Shown here: piece by piece, positions 9,460 through 42,315 of the stretch
Numbering within the stretch: the stretch's first letter is position 1
Layout: every line of letters starts with the position of its first letter
Assembly (NCBI RefSeq): GCF_011064285.1
Contig: NZ_CP049331.1
Span: forward strand, 2,418,001-2,482,000
DNA length: 64,000 bases
Source of the DNA: Vibrio ziniensis
Lineage (GTDB): Bacteria > Pseudomonadota > Gammaproteobacteria > Enterobacterales > Vibrionaceae
Direction of reading: 5' to 3'
The notes under the pieces: generated by a model
What the model saw: the letters and a program-made list of their open reading frames with translations, nothing else
Database searches by the model: none
Told to the model about the DNA's origin: nothing
Translations under genes and position numbers: made by a program

Positions 9460-10818
9460 TCACAGGCGAGTAAAATCGTTAAATAATGCAACTGCCATCA
9501 AAGAGAATATGATAGCGCCGCCAATTCGATAGCCCATTTCTTGTACTTTTTCTGGTACCGGGCGGCGAGTAACGCCTTCAATAGCAAAAAACAGTAGGTG
9601 TCCACCATCCAACATAGGTAGGGGTACCAAATTTATAATTCCCAAATTCACACTAATCAGTGCTAAAAAACCCAAGAAATAAACCAAGCCATAATCGGCT
9701 GTCGTTCCTGCGCCTTTGGCAATCGAAATAGGGCCACTTAAGTTATTTAGGCCAACATCACCGACAATCAGTTTTTTCAACATATTGATCGTTAAACCAA
9801 TAACTTGACCGGTTTTTTCGACCGCTTTACCAACCGATTCAAATACACCATATTGGAGATCAAAGCGATAGCTTTCAGGCCATTCTGCAACTTCAGGTGC
9901 GATACCAGCAAAACCGATCACTTTTCCTTGAGCAATATTCTTTGCTTGCGGAATTAAAACCAGCGATAACATTTCACCTTGTCTGTCTATCTTTAGCTGA
10001 AGTGGCATATTAGGGCTATTTTGAATAGCCGTTACGACCTGTTGCCAATCATTGATAGGGTTACCATCAATATGAGTCAGCACATCTCCTATCTGCAAAC
10101 CTGCAAGTTCACCAGCACCACCTTGAGATACACTCAATAAAGACATATATATTTCAGGGGTATAAGGTTTAAAACCTAAGGCCTCCATAGCAGACTCTGA
10201 TTCTGGGTCAAAGTTCCATTCAGACAGATCTAAAGTTTTAATTTCGTCGAGTCCAACACCTTGTTGAGAAGTCACTGTCATGGTCAATTGCTTATCACCG
10301 ATATGGTCAATCAAGCCCATATTTACGGTTTCCCAATTCAGAGTTTCAACGCCTGAAACAGATTTAATTTGCATTCCAGGCTCAAGCCCCGCTTGAGCGG
10401 AGATAGAATGAGGGATGATTTGACCAATGACAGGTTTAACGGTTGGTACACCAACAAGAAAAACAATCCAATAGGCAAAAATAGCGAACAAGAAGTTAAA
10501 TGCCGGACCAGCGGCTACAATAGCGGAGCGTTTCCATAACGGCTTTTTATCGAATGCGTAACCCTGTTCTTCAACTGAAACGTCGTCAACACGGCCATCG
10601 AGCATTTTAACGAACCCACCGAGCGGGATCATGGAGATACTGTATTCCGTACCATCCTTACCAACTTTGCTCCAAATCGACTTACCGAAGCCAATTGAGA
10701 ATTTTTCGACTTTAACGCCACACTTTCTAGCTACCCAGAAATGTCCAAATTCATGCACCGCGACTAAGATGCCAAGGGCAACGATAAAGGAGACGAAATT
10801 CCACAGAATGCCACTCAT
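9460..10818 (-). CDS. rseP: Site-2 intramembrane zinc protease RseP
   Basis: It cleaves the anti-sigma factor RseA within the inner membrane to release the envelope-stress sigma factor RpoE. It has 452 residues. The first membrane segment carries the zinc motif HEFGH, two PDZ domains occupy about residues 120-300, and the C-terminal membrane segment carries LPMLDGGHL with the third zinc ligand. Its ATG overlaps the dxr stop region by four bases, so translation is probably coupled. Confidence 0.97.
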
Positions 10819-34478: not shown

Positions 34479-35798
34479 TCAAACCATGACCTTATTAGGC
34501 AGCCACGTGACAATGTCCGGAAATAACATACAGATGATAAGCACTAGCAATTGAACCAATATAAATGGTGTTACTGACTTATACAGATCCATCATGGTTA
34601 TGCCTTTGGGAGCAATTCCTTTCAAATAAAACAACGCAAAGCCATAAGGAGGGGTCTGGACAGCGATAACAATATTTAAAATCATCAGTACACCAAACCA
34701 AATAGGATCATAGCCAAGAGCAACCGCCACTGGTGTGAATATAGGAGCACACATCAGTACGATGATGAACTCATCAATAATGAATCCTAAAAGCAGCATG
34801 ATAACCTGAAACATCATGATGATAACGATAGGTGGTAAATCTAGATCTCGAGTGAACCCTGATACCATTCCCTGTATCCCCATCAGCAGATGGAAGTTAC
34901 TAAAGACAGAAGCTCCTAATATTATCCACATAGCAACACTGACTAACATTGCCGTTTGCATACCAGACTTCATAAGGATTTCTGGTTTAAAACGCTTAAA
35001 CAGAATAGATAATAGAATGGCGCCAGCAACGCCTAACGCACCAGACTCCGTTGGGGTCGCAATGCCTGCAATAATGCTTCCGAGAACCACAACAATCAGA
35101 GCAAACGAAGAGGCACCATCACGAATCGTTTTGAATAACTGGTAGCCTTTGGGGATTTCAATGTCATTGTCAGAATCAAATGGGGCACGTTCCGGCTTAA
35201 TTTTACAGCTGATTACCACATAACTAATCAATAAAATAATCGTTATGAAAGCAGGCACCATGGCACCAAGGAACATTTTACCTACTGAGTTTTGAGTAGC
35301 GGAGGCAAACATGATCATTGGAATGCTTGGGGGAATTAGAATTCCCAAAGAGCCACCAGCCATAATTACACCGAGAGCCAGTTTCTTATCATAACCGCGG
35401 TCAAGCATAGGCTTTAAAGCAATACTGCTCGACGTCATGATCCCAGCGCCAATAATACCAACCATAGCGCCAATCATTGAGCATACACCGATAACACTGA
35501 TTGCTAGAGACCCGCGCACACGACCAATCATCAGCTGACTAGCATTAAACATTGCATCCCCGATTCCAGAACGGGTAAGTATTTGTCCCATATAGATATA
35601 GAGAGGGATCGCAAGAAGTATGAAGTTAAAAAAGGTACTCTCAACAGTAGTTGGAATAATATTAAACAGTGCCTCCCCCCAAACTAAATAGCCAACCCCC
35701 ATCGCTATTCCGCCCAGAGCTAATCCAACCTGAGCCCCAAGAGCAAATGAGGCTAAAATGCAGCCCAACAGGGTCAAAGTTAACATCTCAATTCCCAT
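34479..35798 (-). CDS. dctM: TRAP transporter large membrane subunit (DctM/SiaM type)
   Basis: This is the sodium-coupled permease subunit of a tripartite ATP-independent periplasmic transporter. The start MGIEMLTLTLLG (439 residues) has an AAGGAGA ribosome binding site. Upstream in-frame codons lie inside dctQ. About 11-12 membrane segments are visible, and the segment GGSLGILIPPSIPMIMFA is a DctM hallmark. It overlaps dctQ by 11 bases. It belongs to the dctP-dctQ-dctM operon, divergent from gabD-gabT. Confidence 0.93.
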   Translation of the reverse strand: MGIEMLTLTLLGCILASFALGAQVGLALGGIAMGVGYLVWGEALFNIIPTTVESTFFNFILLAIPLYIYMGQILTRSGIGDAMFNASQLMIGRVRGSLAISVIGVCSMIGAMVGIIGAGIMTSSSIALKPMLDRGYDKKLALGVIMAGGSLGILIPPSIPMIMFASATQNSVGKMFLGAMVPAFITIILLISYVVISCKIKPERAPFDSDNDIEIPKGYQLFKTIRDGASSFALIVVVLGSIIAGIATPTESGALGVAGAILLSILFKRFKPEILMKSGMQTAMLVSVAMWIILGASVFSNFHLLMGIQGMVSGFTRDLDLPPIVIIMMFQVIMLLLGFIIDEFIIVLMCAPIFTPVAVALGYDPIWFGVLMILNIVIAVQTPPYGFALFYLKGIAPKGITMMDLYKSVTPFILVQLLVLIICMLFPDIVTWLPNKVMV

Positions 35799-36405
35799 TT
35801 GTGCTCTCCTTGTCAAAAACAGAATGTAATTGATCGCTATCAACCTTAAATGGCTGCTCTTCCAATGCTATGTGTTGGTGAACTTCGCCATTCAGCTCGC
35901 GGCCTTTGATCAAAAAGAACAGATTAGAAATCAATTCCGTGGAATACTGGAGGATAAAAATCACAGCAGAAACGGTAATCATCAACCAGAAATGATGCAT
36001 GGCAGGCGCCCATTCGCTCTGTGTTTTGTAGCCGAATTTTAAACTCTCAAAAAACATCTCAGAACAGATTTTCGCCATCACACTTAGAAAACCAATGGCA
36101 ATCACGCCAGTAAACAGGTCAAATACACGACGCGTTTTTTCAGAAACTTTAGCGTAAATAATATCTACGTTGATGTGTGCTTCTTTCTGCTGAGCGTAGG
36201 CACCACCTAAAGCAGAAATATAGCCAAATAAGAACAGTGACGAGTCATAACTCCAAATTGTCGGCTTGTCTAAGATGTAGCGAGCAAAGACTTCGTAGAA
36301 CACAATCGCCGCCAACACAGGAAGTAAATAAGAAACTGAACGTCCGATAAGACCAACAATGTACTTTATGAACTGACAATACTTCAGTAAAAGGGCTTCC
36401 ATCAT
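35788..36405 (-). CDS. dctQ: TRAP transporter small membrane subunit (DctQ type)
   Basis: This four-helix membrane subunit pairs with DctM. It has 205 residues from the start MMEALLLKYCQFIK, preceded by AGGGGA. The longer frame begins inside a terminator hairpin. Family features include FARYILDKPTIWSYDSSLFL, EAHINVDIIYAKVSEKTRRV and the ALGGAYA segment. A terminator-like hairpin upstream should keep its expression below that of dctP. Confidence 0.9.
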   Translation of the reverse strand: MMEALLLKYCQFIKYIVGLIGRSVSYLLPVLAAIVFYEVFARYILDKPTIWSYDSSLFLFGYISALGGAYAQQKEAHINVDIIYAKVSEKTRRVFDLFTGVIAIGFLSVMAKICSEMFFESLKFGYKTQSEWAPAMHHFWLMITVSAVIFILQYSTELISNLFFLIKGRELNGEVHQHIALEEQPFKVDSDQLHSVFDKESTNGN

Positions 36406-36418
36406 ACAAATTTCCCCT

Positions 36419-36453
36419 AAAAAAACAGGTGATCCCCTCCCGGAGCTCACCTG
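36419..36453 (-). terminator. Intercistronic terminator between dctP and dctQ
   Basis: On the minus strand CAGGTGA and TCACCTG enclose a 14-base loop, followed by T7. It lies between dctP and dctQM in the same operon. It would give more of the periplasmic binding protein than of the membrane subunits. Confidence 0.7.
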
Positions 36454-36463
36454 ATTCAATCCA

Positions 36464-37480
36464 TTACTCTTGTTCTAAAATCTCAACAAGTTGTTTTGAG
36501 TATTTGTCTTCACTTGCATACTCTTTTGCTAATGTCAGTCCTGCATTTCTCCATGCTGCAATATCTTCATCTGATGGTTTAGGGCTCCATTTCAAACCTT
36601 TTGCTTCCATTTCAGCAACTGCTTTAGATTCCCATAGTTTAGATTTCGACATTTGTTCTTGAGCATGAACAGCCGTGGCTGCTTTTACAATCGCTTGCAA
36701 ATCTGCTGGCAGTTTCTTCCACTCTTTCTGATTGACAACGATAGGCAGAACCTGGGCACCAGCAAGCGGTACTGGGTACATGTATTTCGCCACTTCCACA
36801 TGGTTACCATCGCGGTGGTCAATCATATTTGAACCGATAGAACCATCGATAACCCCTGTTGCTAAAGAGGTGTAAATTTCACTCCATGCCAATGACACTG
36901 GTGCTGCACCAAGATTACGCAAGAACTTACCGTAGGCACCCGGCGCACGGATTTTCAACCCTTTAAAGTCTTCAATTGAATTGATCGGCTCTTTCGTAAT
37001 GATATAGACCGGAGGCTGAATATAAGGGTCTAACCATGTTAAACCTTGAGAAGCGTAAGCTTGTTCCATGATTTTGCCGAAGCCTTTATCGTGAAACAGT
37101 GTTGTCAGCTCTGCCACATCAGAAGTACCACCCGGTAAACCAACTTCTACAACACCAGCAGGAAACTCACCAGCATGCATAGGCTGAAAAGGAGCACCCA
37201 TAGTAATAAGCCCCGATTTCACAGCACTTAAAATACCGCTAGTACCCACACCTTCACCAGAATACAGCACCTGTACGGCGATTCGGCCATTAGACATCGC
37301 TTCAATGTTTTTCGCTAAATCTTCATAGACCTCACCAAAGGCGGTACCACGGCCATAAAGGTTCGCAAATCGCCAGTTATATTCAGCTGCCATGCTGGCG
37401 GCGGAAGTCACTAATGCGCTGACACCAATGGCCGCTGCGAATGCGACTTTGGCTAGTTTATTTCCTTTCATTCCTAGCAT
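36464..37480 (-). CDS. dctP: TRAP transporter periplasmic solute-binding protein (DctP type)
   Basis: This 338-residue secreted protein has a signal peptide ending near ASMAAEYNW. The DctP core includes EAMSNGRIAVQVLYSGEGVG and GLKIRAPGAYGKFLRNLGA. Arg178 (precursor numbering) in KIRAPG is the residue that binds substrate carboxylate in this family. SLATGVIDGSIG is also typical. Divergent gabD-gabT genes suggest the substrate is GABA or a compound broken down through GABA. That is inference from context, not from the binding site. Confidence 0.92.
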   Translation of the reverse strand: MLGMKGNKLAKVAFAAAIGVSALVTSAASMAAEYNWRFANLYGRGTAFGEVYEDLAKNIEAMSNGRIAVQVLYSGEGVGTSGILSAVKSGLITMGAPFQPMHAGEFPAGVVEVGLPGGTSDVAELTTLFHDKGFGKIMEQAYASQGLTWLDPYIQPPVYIITKEPINSIEDFKGLKIRAPGAYGKFLRNLGAAPVSLAWSEIYTSLATGVIDGSIGSNMIDHRDGNHVEVAKYMYPVPLAGAQVLPIVVNQKEWKKLPADLQAIVKAATAVHAQEQMSKSKLWESKAVAEMEAKGLKWSPKPSDEDIAAWRNAGLTLAKEYASEDKYSKQLVEILEQE

Positions 37481-37567: not shown

Positions 37568-37641
37568 GTGCCAGTAAGGAAGTTGTTATGGTACCAGCAA
37601 GAAATTATTAGCTGGTACCACAGTTTTGACACAACTGGTAC
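37568..37641. promoter_or_regulatory. Symmetric four-half-site operator in the TRAP/gab divergent promoter region
   Basis: Two direct GTRCCAG sites (37568-37574, 37591-37597) are 23 bp apart. Two direct CTGGTAC sites (37612-37618, 37635-37641) are also 23 bp apart. The two pairs mirror each other exactly about 37604.5. The inner sites extend to a perfect 10-bp inverted repeat, TGGTACCAGC/GCTGGTACCA. The probable ligand is the GabR-like regulator encoded at 40534, since MocR proteins bind direct repeats such as ATACCA. Confidence 0.75.
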
Positions 37642-37702
37642 TTAAATCCTGTGAAGTTTTAAGACTACCATGCATACAACAGCCTACAAAAGAGACACAA
37701 AC

Positions 37703-39130
37703 ATGGACCAAATCATTAACAAATCACTCCTTAAAGCAACTTGCCCTGCGAGTGATGATGCGATTGCAATCATTAATCCGGCTACTGATGAAGTTCTTGC
37801 TTATATCCCGTCAGTAGATACCAAAACAATTTGCTCTCTGATCAGCGCTTCTAAACAAGCTCAAATACTGTGGCAGGATAAAAGTGCTGCAGAACGTTCA
37901 GTTATTCTCAAGCGTTGGTACGATTTAATGGTTCAAAATGCCGACGACTTAGCTCGTATCATGACACTAGAACAAGGTAAACCTTTAGCTGAAGCAAAAG
38001 GTGAAGTGATGTATGGGGCTTCATTTATTCAGTGGTTTGCTGAGGAAGGGAAACGGGTTTACGGAGATACGATTCCCTCTCCAACAGGTAATAAACGCCT
38101 GATGACAGTAAAACAACCTGTTGGTATTGCAGCAGCCATTACACCGTGGAATTTCCCTATTGCAATGATTACCCGCAAAGCAGCTCCAGCTTTAGCTGCT
38201 GGTTGCAGTTTCATAGTCAAACCGGCAAACCAAACCCCACTTTCAGCCTACGCAACCGCAGAACTCGCTTATCAGGCCGGATTACCAAAAGACTTATTGA
38301 TCATTGTTAACAATCACTCTTCTGTGGCTGTGGGCGAGATCCTATGTACTCACGAAGACATTAAAAAGCTTTCCTTTACGGGTTCAACTGAAGTAGGGCG
38401 TTATCTGATAAACCAATGTGCAAGCACCATTAAGCGAACCTCAATGGAACTTGGTGGTAATGCGCCATTCATCGTCTTTGATGATGCTGATGTTGAACAG
38501 GCGGTAAAAGGAGCTATTGCTTCTAAATTCCGCAATGCAGGGCAAACCTGCGTGTGCGCGAACCGCTTTTACGTACAAGATGGAATTTACGATCAGTTTG
38601 TCGAAAAGTTCATTGCTGCCGTGTCTGAACTAAAAATGGGTAACGGTCTAGAGCCTGGTGTCAGCATTGGTCCTCTGATTGATATCAAAGCGAAAAAGAG
38701 TGTCCTTAGCTATATAGAAAATGCCGTTAAGCAAGGTGCAAAAATTGCACTGGGTGGTAAAGCTGAACATGGTTTGTTTGTTCAGCCGACCATCCTAACT
38801 GAGGTCACTCAAGACATGGACATTACCCAAACCGAACTTTTCGGGCCTGTCGCACCAATTATTCGCTTCTCAAATGATCAGGAACTGATCGAAAAAGCGA
38901 ATGACACTATCTACGGGCTAGCAAGCTACTTCTACACCGAAAATATCAAACGAGCCTTCACTATCGCGGAAAAACTGGAATACGGCATGGTAGGAATTAA
39001 TGAGGGTCTGATTTCAAATGAAGTCGCTCCATTTGGCGGTGTAAAACAATCCGGTTTTGGCCGTGAGGGTGCAAAACAAGGCATCGATGAATATCTCAAC
39101 ATTAAATATCTCTGTTTCGGCGGCTTTTAA
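37703..39130 (+). CDS. gabD: NAD(P)-dependent succinate-semialdehyde dehydrogenase
   Basis: It oxidises succinate semialdehyde to succinate in GABA breakdown. The start MDQIINKSLLKATCPA (475 residues) has AGAGA upstream. An ATG 11 codons earlier is weaker. Aldehyde-dehydrogenase landmarks are ITPWNFPIAMITRKAAPALA, FTGSTEVGRYL, the general base in MELGGNAPFIVFDDADVEQA and the catalytic Cys in NAGQTCVCANRFYV. The C-terminal APFGGVKQSGFGREG is typical. It is the first gene of gabD-gabT-regulator. Confidence 0.94.
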   Translation: MDQIINKSLLKATCPASDDAIAIINPATDEVLAYIPSVDTKTICSLISASKQAQILWQDKSAAERSVILKRWYDLMVQNADDLARIMTLEQGKPLAEAKGEVMYGASFIQWFAEEGKRVYGDTIPSPTGNKRLMTVKQPVGIAAAITPWNFPIAMITRKAAPALAAGCSFIVKPANQTPLSAYATAELAYQAGLPKDLLIIVNNHSSVAVGEILCTHEDIKKLSFTGSTEVGRYLINQCASTIKRTSMELGGNAPFIVFDDADVEQAVKGAIASKFRNAGQTCVCANRFYVQDGIYDQFVEKFIAAVSELKMGNGLEPGVSIGPLIDIKAKKSVLSYIENAVKQGAKIALGGKAEHGLFVQPTILTEVTQDMDITQTELFGPVAPIIRFSNDQELIEKANDTIYGLASYFYTENIKRAFTIAEKLEYGMVGINEGLISNEVAPFGGVKQSGFGREGAKQGIDEYLNIKYLCFGGF

Positions 39131-39177: not shown

Positions 39178-40449
39178 ATGACCAATATGGAATGGCAAAG
39201 CCGTAAGGAAAAAGTCGTCGCTAAAGGTATGGCGAACCTTGCTCCTATTTATGCGGCTAAAGCAAAAAATGCATTAATTACGGATATCGAAGGTAAAGAG
39301 TATATCGACTTTGCTGCAGGTATCGCAGTTAACAATACGGGTCATTCAAACCCTCGTATCGTAGCAGCAGTCAAGGAGCAACTAGAGTTATTCAGCCACA
39401 CTTGTTCGATGGTCACTCCCTACACCAGTTTTGTTGAACTTGCCGAGCAAGTGGTTGATATTGCACCGGGTGACTTCGAGAAAAAAGCCGCATTTCTTAC
39501 AACGGGTGCAGAAGCAGTTGAAAATGCAATAAAATTTGCTCGTGCACATACTGGTCGTAGTGGTGTGATTGCTTTTAAAGGCGGATTTCATGGTCGTACC
39601 AACTTATGTATGGGACTAACAGGTAAAGTGGCACCATACAAAGCAGGATTCGGTCCTTTTCCAAATGAAATTTACCACCTGCCCTATCCCAATCAATACC
39701 ATGGCATTAGCGAAGAACAAAGTTTGTCTGCATTAGCGGATTTATTTGCCTGTGATATTGAACCATCCCGTGTTGCGGCGATCATTTTTGAACCTATTCA
39801 GGGCGAAGGTGGTTTCTACCAAGCTCCCAATACATGGGTAAGTGAACTGCGTAACCTCTGTGACAAACATGGCATTGTGCTTATCTGCGATGAAATCCAA
39901 ACTGGTTTTGCGCGTACAGGTAAGCTGTTTGCTTGTGAATACTTCGATGCAAAACCAGATTTAATCACGATGGCAAAAGGTATTGCAGGCGGTTTCCCTC
40001 TATCTGGCGTTGTCGGCAAAGCAGAAATTATGGATTCAGCTAATCCGGGCGGTATCGGCGGCACTTATGCTGGTTCACCACTAGCTTGTCGTGCGGCACT
40101 TGAAGTTATCAAAATCGTAAAAGAGGATAACTTGTGCGAGCGAGCTCAACAAATTGGTTCTCAATTCAAAGAGATACTGACAGAAATGCAAAAAGAGATA
40201 GCTCAAATAGGTGATATTCGTCAGGTTGGCGCTATGATTGCGATTGAACTCAATGATCCAACAACGGGACAACCACTTGCAGATCTGACTAAACAACTGG
40301 TATTAAAGAGTAACCAGCAAGGTCTTATTCTTCTTTCTTGTGGTGTAAAAGGGAATGTTATTCGCTTCCTTCCACCGTTAACAATTGAACCAGAATTAGT
40401 GTCAAAAGGGCTGGAGATCGTTAAATCGCAACTACAGTCGCTGATATAA
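39178..40449 (+). CDS. gabT: 4-aminobutyrate aminotransferase (GabT/PuuE type)
   Basis: This PLP enzyme moves the amino group of GABA to 2-oxoglutarate, giving succinate semialdehyde for GabD. It has 423 residues. Motifs include FAAGIAVNNTGHSNPRIV, LTTGAEAVENAIKFARAHTG, EPIQGEGGFYQAP, CDEIQTGFARTGKLFACEYF and the PLP lysine in LITMAKGIAGGFPLSGV. It lies 47 bp after gabD. Activity on related omega-amino acids such as 5-aminovalerate cannot be excluded. Confidence 0.93.
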   Translation: MTNMEWQSRKEKVVAKGMANLAPIYAAKAKNALITDIEGKEYIDFAAGIAVNNTGHSNPRIVAAVKEQLELFSHTCSMVTPYTSFVELAEQVVDIAPGDFEKKAAFLTTGAEAVENAIKFARAHTGRSGVIAFKGGFHGRTNLCMGLTGKVAPYKAGFGPFPNEIYHLPYPNQYHGISEEQSLSALADLFACDIEPSRVAAIIFEPIQGEGGFYQAPNTWVSELRNLCDKHGIVLICDEIQTGFARTGKLFACEYFDAKPDLITMAKGIAGGFPLSGVVGKAEIMDSANPGGIGGTYAGSPLACRAALEVIKIVKEDNLCERAQQIGSQFKEILTEMQKEIAQIGDIRQVGAMIAIELNDPTTGQPLADLTKQLVLKSNQQGLILLSCGVKGNVIRFLPPLTIEPELVSKGLEIVKSQLQSLI

Positions 40450-40533: not shown

Positions 40534-42315
40534 ATGCTGTATCAATTTATTCATATCGACTCACAAGACTCACGGACACTGCAAGATCAGATAAAAAGTG
40601 ATATTGCAAAAGCCATATTCGCTGGTTTTGTTCCAAAGCAAACCAGCATCACTTCTTCACGCCAATTAGCCGAAAAACTCAAAGTATCCCGTAATACGAT
40701 TTTACGCGTTTACGAACAGTTAGCCGAAGAAGGCGTACTCATACCCATCGAAAGAAAAGGTTATTACGTCAATCCCCAGCTCGAGCTGAAGAAACCGTCA
40801 TCCGATCAGCAAAGTGGGCGTCCAATTTCATCACTCAACTGGGATCATTACTTAAACAATGAACAATCGCTTTCAGCGGCTTCTGTAAAAGATCTTTCCA
40901 ACTACCCTTATTTGTTTGTTAACGGCATGGTCGATGAAGATCTATTTCCTGTTAGTGAGTGGCGCAAATGCAGCATTCAATCTTTAAACAAAAGTAATCA
41001 CCGCAGTTGGACATCAAGCCATAACGACTATGAAGAGTTAATTGAGCAGATACGAACTCGTGTGCTGACTAAACGGGGAATATTTGTTAACCAAGAAAAC
41101 ATTGCCATTACACTTGGTTGCCAAAATAGTCTTTATTACCTCACTCGTTTATTAGTTTCGAAAACAACGTCAGTAGGAATGGAAAACCCAGGCTACCCAG
41201 AAGCATTTCTTCAGTTTCAAGCTCGCAGAGCAAATGTAATACCCATAGATGTCGATGCAAAAGGGTTGGTCGTCGATTCCCGGCTTAATCACTGTAATTT
41301 GGTTTATACAACCCCTAGCAATCAATTCCCAACCACAGTTCGAATGTCACCAGAAAGACGTAAGGCACTGATTGACTCAGCGAACGAGCATGACTTTTTG
41401 ATTATCGAAGACGATTTTGAACATGATGTGAACTTCATTGAAAATAGCTGTCCTCCTTTGAGGTGTGAGTATCCAACAGAACGAATTATCTACATATCCA
41501 GTTTCACCTCGACCATTGCGCCTGGTCTACGTATTGGTTTTATCGTTGCAGCATCACCGCTAATCGACCAAATTAAAGCTCTACAGGTACGTACCCACAG
41601 TCTTCCCCCAAAAAGTAACTGTCAAACCTTAGCTCTGTTTCTGAGTCTGGGATACTACGACATGCTGACTCAAAAACTACTCAAGCGATATAGAGAAAAA
41701 TGGCTAACGATGGAGAAGGCAATGAACTATTACTTTCCTCAGTCGGGTGTTACGCCGTCGTTAGCTGGAACGGCATTTTGGGTTGATTATAAAGAAGGGT
41801 TTGATGCAACTCGCTTTGAGCGACTCGCAGAAGAGAATGGTATTTTGATTAATAACGGGCAGAAGTATTACTGCTGTAACCACAAAAACAACAGCTTCAG
41901 ACTGAGTTTCCAGTCAATTCGTACCGAGAATATACGAACAGGTATTGCTCAACTGGCTCGCATAGCTAAAGAAGTGTTGCCCAATGTTAGCTTGGCCGAA
42001 TGCTTAGAAGCACCATTAACAGGACAGCAAATCAGGGCAATGGTAACCAATAAAACATTGCTATCAAAAGATTGCTTCAATATTCCTTACAGGATCACTC
42101 TTCAAGCAGATGGGAAGATGATTGGAATATCCGATCGACCCAATGATATAGATGAGGGGTACTGGTGGGTTGAAAATGACAAATTTGTTTACCAATGGCG
42201 TAATTGGCAATTTTCAGATATTCGACACATTACGATCGTTTATGAAAACAATGAACTGAAACGCTTTGATGAGGAAGGCTACTTCATTGGAGAAGTCAGC
42301 TTTATTGATGAGTAA
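40534..42315 (+). CDS. GabR/MocR-family regulator lacking the PLP lysine, with an extra C-terminal domain
   Basis: The start MLYQFIHIDSQDSRTLQDQI (593 residues) has AGGAAAG upstream. Residues 1-75 form a GntR-type winged helix (SSRQLAEKLKVSRNTILRVY). About 100-470 is an aminotransferase-like domain with TTPSNQFPTTV. Where GabR proteins have the PLP-Schiff-base Lys in FSKT, this has FTST, so Ser326. Phe295 replaces the Tyr that holds the PLP ring hydroxyl. Arg456 in FRLSF is kept. A tail from about 485 (LTGQQIRAMV ... GYWWVENDKFVYQWRNWQF) is an added domain I cannot name. It is tandem with gabT and probably controls both divergent operons. Confidence 0.85.
   Translation: MLYQFIHIDSQDSRTLQDQIKSDIAKAIFAGFVPKQTSITSSRQLAEKLKVSRNTILRVYEQLAEEGVLIPIERKGYYVNPQLELKKPSSDQQSGRPISSLNWDHYLNNEQSLSAASVKDLSNYPYLFVNGMVDEDLFPVSEWRKCSIQSLNKSNHRSWTSSHNDYEELIEQIRTRVLTKRGIFVNQENIAITLGCQNSLYYLTRLLVSKTTSVGMENPGYPEAFLQFQARRANVIPIDVDAKGLVVDSRLNHCNLVYTTPSNQFPTTVRMSPERRKALIDSANEHDFLIIEDDFEHDVNFIENSCPPLRCEYPTERIIYISSFTSTIAPGLRIGFIVAASPLIDQIKALQVRTHSLPPKSNCQTLALFLSLGYYDMLTQKLLKRYREKWLTMEKAMNYYFPQSGVTPSLAGTAFWVDYKEGFDATRFERLAEENGILINNGQKYYCCNHKNNSFRLSFQSIRTENIRTGIAQLARIAKEVLPNVSLAECLEAPLTGQQIRAMVTNKTLLSKDCFNIPYRITLQADGKMIGISDRPNDIDEGYWWVENDKFVYQWRNWQFSDIRHITIVYENNELKRFDEEGYFIGEVSFIDE

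Follow-up and report, generated by a model that had tools for sequence, protein, structure and literature searches.

The window analyzed here, a stretch of 64,000 nucleotides of the Vibrio ziniensis genome, carries a gene for a MocR/GabR-type regulator downstream of gabD and gabT, with the genes of a TRAP transporter running in the opposite direction upstream of them (Table 1). The regulator starts at an ATG, with AGGA just 5' of it, and its relatives share their N-termini. The original prediction described a GntR-type DNA-binding domain followed by an aminotransferase-like domain, and both were recovered by Pfam above the family cut-offs: GntR scored 27.7 bits (cut-off 27), giving the N-terminal winged helix-turn-helix (wHTH) of MocR/GabR proteins, and Aminotran_1_2 scored 42.1 bits (cut-off 19.7), giving their fold type I domain. 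Across 18 distinct Vibrio members, 30 of the 72 wHTH positions from 10 to 81 are invariant, as are 124 of the 348 positions of the aminotransferase-like domain. By sequence, the best solved relatives of the regulator are 7pq9 and Bacillus subtilis GabR (4n0b); the phmmer alignment with the latter has an E value of 2e-36, and a profile alignment spans positions 6–478, reaching GabR residue 468. The NCBIfam GabR model gave 192.8 bits against a cut-off of 600, so the protein does not rank as a GabR orthologue, and the PdxR model NF052282 gave 309.8 bits over residues 16–474, under its cut-off of 320. The position of the Schiff-base lysine that marks the MocR/GabR subfamily is held by Ser326, for which reason its architecture is what places the regulator here, in a divergent MocR branch without the lysine rather than among the PLP-dependent MocR proteins. 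Its closest named relative is a protein of Vibrio sp. Y2-5 (95% identity), and among the 15 of 122 matches listed, the alignments with plasmid relatives end by residue 508, with no tail seen.

Table 1. Features of the regulator gene and the adjoining gab/TRAP locus (positions in the window)
Feature	Position	Strand	Basis or remark
TRAP large permease (DctM)	34479..35843	-	NCBIfam TIGR00786, 296 bits (cut-off 268)
TRAP small permease (DctQ)	35788..36459	-	Named by conserved position between dctP and dctM
TRAP substrate-binding protein DctP	36464..37480	-	NCBIfam NF037995, 102.5 bits (cut-off 50); Pfam DctP
Operator-like element, dctP/gabD divergent promoter region	37568..37641	.	Four mirrored boxes
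gabD, succinate-semialdehyde dehydrogenase	37670..39130	+	NCBIfam TIGR01780, 659 bits (cut-off 646)
gabT, 4-aminobutyrate transaminase	39178..40449	+	NCBIfam TIGR00700, 599 bits (cut-off 507)
MocR/GabR-type regulator gene without the PLP lysine	40534..42315	+	593 aa plus stop
GntR-type winged helix-turn-helix, about residues 10–82	40561..40779	+	Pfam GntR at 17–79
Aminotransferase-like (fold type I) domain, about residues 130–477	40921..41964	+	Pfam Aminotran_1_2 at 137–471; GabR alignment
Asp293-Asp294-Phe295	41410..41418	+	Asp279 kept, Tyr281 replaced by Phe
Ser326, position of the PLP Schiff-base lysine	41509..41511	+	
Arg333, equivalent of the PLP-phosphate Arg319, kept	41530..41532	+	
Arg456, equivalent of GabR position 446	41899..41901	+	Kept in 68/70 distinct tailed proteins
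C-terminal tail, residues 482–593, predicted helix plus 8-stranded lipocalin-like barrel	41977..42312	+	

In the phmmer alignment, Lys312 of GabR falls on Ser326 and Tyr281 on Phe295 with no gap between them, just as had been read from the window alone: the PLP lysine is replaced by serine, the Asp-Asp-Tyr motif reads Asp-Asp-Phe, and the spacing of 31 residues between the two positions is right. A tailed protein was found in 29 Vibrio genomes, the union of a genus-wide protein search and a tail-profile search of the family. The former gave a match including the tail in 24 of 196 Vibrio genomes at identities of at least 56%, with the tail-covering match in G010 starting only at residue 84, and the latter, run over 296 family genomes, found 25 Vibrio genomes and two of another genus. 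Residue 326 is Ser in 28 of the 29, Ala in one (G057), and Lys in none, which rules out a strain-specific mutation. The regulator ORF of G010 is broken into two (L079, 8646–10503). A misaligned lysine is likewise ruled out, by the gap-free stretch and by the search for a conserved lysine that could take over the Schiff-base position from elsewhere: within residues 126–479, only Lys389 and Lys395 are invariant among the 18 distinct Vibrio members, and both align away from that position. Judged by these alignments, no internal aldimine of lysine and PLP can form at the usual position, and the Vibrio clade is fixed for the absence of the lysine. The claim that the protein cannot sense its ligand in the way of GabR thus holds for transimination of a Lys-PLP internal aldimine at residue 326, which is chemically excluded with no lysine there; it goes too far for non-covalently held PLP, PMP, or a PLP-amine adduct, any of which could still be used.

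The remainder of the Vibrio pocket is well preserved. The equivalents of Tyr205, Phe250, Asp279, and Arg319 of GabR (Tyr221, Phe265, Asp293, and Arg333), to which Table 2 of PMC6917764, a source available in part, assigns stacking on PLP and contacts to its ring, pyridine nitrogen, and phosphate, respectively, are each found in 18 of 18 distinct Vibrio members, and Arg456 is invariant too (18/18). All five positions would be invariant with a probability of about 0.006 if they were independent; active-site positions are seldom average, and this conservation gives a faint hint that a ligand, perhaps PLP, is still there. Residue 295 is Phe in 17 of the 18 members and Tyr in one, and by comparison with the loss of the lysine, the change from Tyr281 to Phe is, on the alignment, the lesser one. 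Arg456 had been taken as comparable to the carboxylate-binding arginine, an assignment that fails in the profile alignment, where it pairs with Ile446 of GabR and Arg430, which holds the carboxylate of GABA, pairs with Lys444. The PtsJ and EnuR clusters have Arg at position 446 (PMC6677901, Table 5, seen as an excerpt). The GABA-carboxylate triad His114/Arg207/Arg430 reads Asn130, Glu223, and Lys444 in the window protein and H/N/S/G, Glu only, and K/Q/R in the 18 distinct members; GABA binding through GabR's own triad is ruled out by these residues.

The tail of about 110 residues has WWVENDKFVYQWRNW at 544–558 and is found in all 29 Vibrio genomes; MocR proteins of other Vibrio species (32–39% identity) are without it. 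The proposed profile search for a known domain returned no Pfam family for the window tail at E values up to 1, and a tail profile run against the sequences of solved structures found nothing at E up to 10. Structure prediction, also proposed, succeeded for the tail alone (pLDDT 89, pTM 0.81) and was poor for the full-length protein (AlphaFold2, pLDDT 52), a model that served for no more than an early indication of tail strands. The former predicts that the tail folds into an eight-stranded barrel like that of lipocalins. A Foldseek search with this model returned nothing at E values up to 0.001; the fold neighbors of the model include 4i95, 4gzv, ToxS (8u2f), and TP0435 (4u3q), with 7–15% identity in the structural alignments, as well as the ToxR-ToxS heterodimer 8alo. 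Twelve tail positions are invariant across seven divergent sequences. The tail forms a domain of its own, for which a sensory role is conceivable, as had been suggested. Tail-like sequences were also seen apart from regulators: tail match G1138:C12:178404-178724 is a stand-alone 130-aa ORF with little beyond the tail domain, on a contig that also encodes a complete tailed regulator some 10 kb away (L183); two ORFs of 166 and 170 aa whose starts resemble signal peptides by eye match the tail profile (L068 and L069, E 6e-7 and 3e-6); and a 572-aa ORF with a nucleotidyl-cyclase-like start, again by eye, has two tail-resembling stretches near its end (L070, E 1e-4).

The tail extends well beyond Vibrio. 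With the centre genomes counted in, the tail profile had matches in a sister family of the same order (32 of 216 genomes), in a second order of the phylum (14 of 180), and in a third order (13 of 177); except for two (130 and 279 aa), the matches listed in these three groups lie in ORFs of 599–765 aa. A profile built solely from Vibrio tails found five proteins in 369 genomes of the class, three of which are not MocR proteins. For comparison, 136 rows were reduced at 92% identity to 94 distinct proteins, 70 tailed and 24 untailed, with the short rows of 130 and 279 aa removed; the untailed set was chosen by similarity to the tailed profile or to the query. The lysine is kept in 41 of the 70 tailed proteins versus 24/24 untailed ones, Arg319 in 45 versus 24/24, and all four PLP contacts (Lys, Arg319, Asp279, and an aromatic residue at 205) are present together in only 6 of 70 versus 24/24. 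The idea that the tail simply replaces the lysine does not survive these counts, which rule out a plain coupling of tail present with lysine absent. The lysine is replaced by S (17 proteins), Q (3), R, E, and N (2 each), and A, H, and P (1 each), and in most lysine-less tailed lineages outside the Vibrio clade, further PLP contacts are gone as well. The loss of the lysine, as read from these alignments, is real, fixed in Vibrio, and wider than had been noticed, and marks a variant of MocR regulators.

A careful tree was built from 93 rows, with seven trait columns removed and L002, an untailed protein of the window's own genome with a very long branch, left out. All tailed proteins lie on one side of one branch (support 100/99; all 200 bootstrap trees), and membership of the Vibrio regulator in a tailed MocR clade is well supported by the sequences. 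The lysine changes state at least six times and Arg319 at least four times; these changes fall among the tailed proteins because every untailed row has both residues, and the summed branch length is 33.7 for the tailed and 18.7 for the untailed part. A quick tree that included L002 gave five lysine, four Arg319, and two tail-label changes, and several of its inner forks joining lysine-less long-branch lineages are open, which leaves the number of independent losses uncertain. The changes are read as losses because no untailed row is without the lysine and the published clusters have it too: a survey of about 1,330 MocR sequences in three clusters, of which an excerpt was available, gives it as conserved in all (PMC6677901). 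Given that several tailed lineages have the lysine, the tail is most likely older than the loss of that residue, and was probably already in place when decay of the PLP site set in along several lineages. The tail arises once on the careful tree, so that its permitting the loss of PLP amounts to a single association.

The order gabD, gabT, regulator is kept in all 20 Vibrionaceae loci inspected (the window and L072–L090, out of 31 such genomes found; ORFs are split in L079 and L087), and divergent TRAP genes lie upstream in 17 of the 20. Among 63 loci (the window and 62 fetched), the neighbor clusters comprise a putative secreted beta-lactamase-fold hydrolase (46 loci), a C-N hydrolase (CNH, 39), a TonB receptor (39), gabT (38), gabD (37), an MFS transporter (33), and a TPR-sulfotransferase (31), whereas TRAP genes occur in 17, all in Vibrio. 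These counts are lower bounds, as the genes are mechanical ORFs in pieces of 6–20 kb (L217 gave no regulator ORF); the cluster names come from searches with one to three members each, and secretion of the hydrolase was judged by eye. Outside Vibrionaceae, the usual order is regulator, CNH, TonB, TPR-sulfotransferase, hydrolase, MFS, and the conserved neighbors were seen at L071, L083–L087, L121, L122, and L181–L220, not each gene everywhere. Against the Pfam Beta-lactamase family (cut-off 27), the hydrolase of L071 scored 37.0 and that of L122 fell below with 25.3, while that of L083 was not listed; NCBIfam gave no family for the L122 protein, and the hydrolase profile had one weak match among solved structures, related to class C beta-lactamases (E 9e-5). 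We conjecture that the locus acts on an amide or oligomer from which an omega-amino acid is released to feed GabT and GabD. Among the matches listed in a search of open-licence full texts, no title or abstract start dealt with this locus or with a MocR clade that has the tail or is without the lysine, and the excerpt of PMC10040529 has the searched terms only in separate rows of a table.

An operator-like element lies between dctP and gabD, with boxes GTGCCAG at 37568, GGTACCAG at 37590, CTGGTACC at 37612, and CTGGTAC at 37635, mirrored and with like boxes 23 bp apart. In an alignment of this intergenic region from 16 loci, the element is strongly conserved in 15; the boxes of L084 lie inside the mechanical gabD ORF, which covers the region. 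The complete genome, of 4.65 Mb, has a single site with the arrangement GGTACCAG-N(8-30)-CTGGTACC. More CTGGTACC or GGTACCA boxes are found away from the gab locus, at 9552, 9623, and 57227 of the window, where the spacing of the main element is absent. Across 158 Vibrio genomes, which took in 18 of the 24 tailed genomes of the genus search and not the other six, a looser pattern of the element matched 18/18 genomes with the tailed gene versus 7/140 without it, and the strict form, a subset of the looser matches, 16/18 versus 0/140 (Fisher p 2e-18 and 5e-20, values that are too strong owing to genome kinship). All 18 genomes have one match 2.9–3.4 kb upstream of the regulator. In the sister Vibrionaceae genus (L072 and L073), CTGGTAC occurs only within genes. 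Outside Vibrio, CTGGTAC boxes number 14 in the gap between regulator and CNH (11 of 34 loci; 0.48 boxes expected from shuffled sequences) and 11 in that between CNH and TonB (11 of 31 loci; 0.12 expected), in a single orientation throughout and with 23-bp pairs in L188, L196, and L197. Nearly all of these boxes come from the sister family of the same order (L219 is the exception); the same two gaps have none in loci from the order of G758, and no box was found in 10 LysR-gabD, 8 gabT-regulator, 26 TonB-TPR, and 12 gaps before a divergent regulator. A candidate operator is thus well supported in Vibrio by its conservation and partly shared outside, and we infer that the regulator binds it directly.

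We consider it somewhat probable that this is a functional MocR-type factor without an internal aldimine that controls GABA-type catabolism, with the barrel taking over all or part of the sensing. The winged helices of a dimer would bind the CTGGTAC boxes of the dctP-gabD region at their spacing of 23 bp, and the regulator would thereby control the divergent TRAP transporter and gabD-gabT genes upstream of its own. On the sequence evidence, no Lys-PLP internal aldimine can form at the usual place; the barrel, which going by the tree was probably gained ahead of the decay of the PLP site in several lineages, would have taken over ligand sensing wholly or partly and made the internal aldimine dispensable. 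The aminotransferase-like domain would be left mainly as a dimer scaffold, perhaps with a carboxylate-binding pocket at Arg456, and the ligand may be GABA, a related omega-amino acid, or a precursor imported by the TRAP system. By analogy, the EnuR variant Lys302His, which according to an excerpt of PMC8739950 no longer incorporates PLP and is a constitutive repressor, argues that loss of the lysine would abolish stable PLP binding. Weighing against this explanation, some tailed proteins, L094 and L124 among them, retain every one of the PLP contacts (6/70), most gaps examined outside Vibrio are without boxes, and a pocket otherwise invariant in Vibrio would be unexpected if the domain were a mere scaffold.

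That invariance is what speaks for a Vibrio clade that still uses vitamin B6 and, without the lysine, senses PLP, PMP, or an adduct of PLP and an amino acid formed beforehand, bound non-covalently in the pocket: the four PLP-contacting residues are kept in every member against about a third of the domain at large, and only Ser or Ala stands at the lysine position. We regard this reading as unlikely, though it deserves to be kept in mind, as EnuR Lys302His took up no PLP, most other lysine-less tailed lineages have lost further PLP contacts, and the kept pocket residues may serve the fold. The same EnuR variant, being a constitutive repressor, would fit a repressor or activator that responds to no ligand. 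The tail would in that case serve structure or contacts between proteins, and the output would depend on the amount of the regulator or on a different protein; such barrels also work in protein complexes, as in the ToxR-ToxS heterodimer. The 12 invariant tail positions over divergent sequences and the persistence of the tail beside catabolic genes, where an inducer is expected, make this quite improbable. That the gene is merely decaying, with the lysine loss a loss of function, seems hardly credible: the ORF is split in one of 29 Vibrio genomes (G010) and is full-length in the other 28, gene order and the operator-like element are kept in all 20 loci and 18 genomes searched, respectively, and the conservation of the wHTH points the same way.

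More broadly, and as a tentative proposal that we hold to be rather less than probable, a MocR clade may have swapped its sensor, a fused barrel standing in for covalent PLP that was lost repeatedly, with a pseudo-aminotransferase as scaffold and, in many genomes, a conserved locus for which the papers searched gave no description. The tailed clade is a natural experiment in how an enzyme-derived sensor can change its chemistry, with the architecture kept and cofactor residues lost repeatedly; in the Vibrio tailed regulators, operator and target genes are kept alongside the loss of a cofactor residue. For annotation, the label "PLP-dependent aminotransferase family protein" need not mean that PLP is bound.

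To our knowledge, the MocR factors studied to date sense by means of PLP. GabR of B. subtilis (4n0b, 5t4j, 5x03) resembles the regulator in its wHTH and aminotransferase-like domains, its association with gabT/gabD, the equivalents of Asp279 and Arg319, and aromatic residues at positions 205 and 250; it differs in that its Lys312 is absent from the Vibrio regulator, which has an extra C-terminal domain, and in that His114, Arg207, and Arg430 correspond there to a variable, an invariant acidic, and a K/Q/R position. The proteobacterial GabR, GabR2, and OapR regulons of PMC5320631 likewise pair MocR proteins with gabT/gabD-type targets; in the available part of that paper, no tail or lysine loss is mentioned and TRAP transporters appear for TauR2 only, and its main text lacks the words "Vibrio" and "lysine". 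For lipocalin-like barrels, no sequence-profile relation to the tail was found. Untailed Vibrio MocR proteins (L028–L033, 36–39% identity) share the architecture up to about residue 480–500, and unlike the tailed regulator, all six end without a tail and retain the lysine, in SKS, together with DDY and Arg319. PdxR-like MocR regulators (NF052282) are the closest curated model by score, compared with which the Vibrio regulator is without the PLP lysine, carries a tail, and is adjoined by gabT and gabD.
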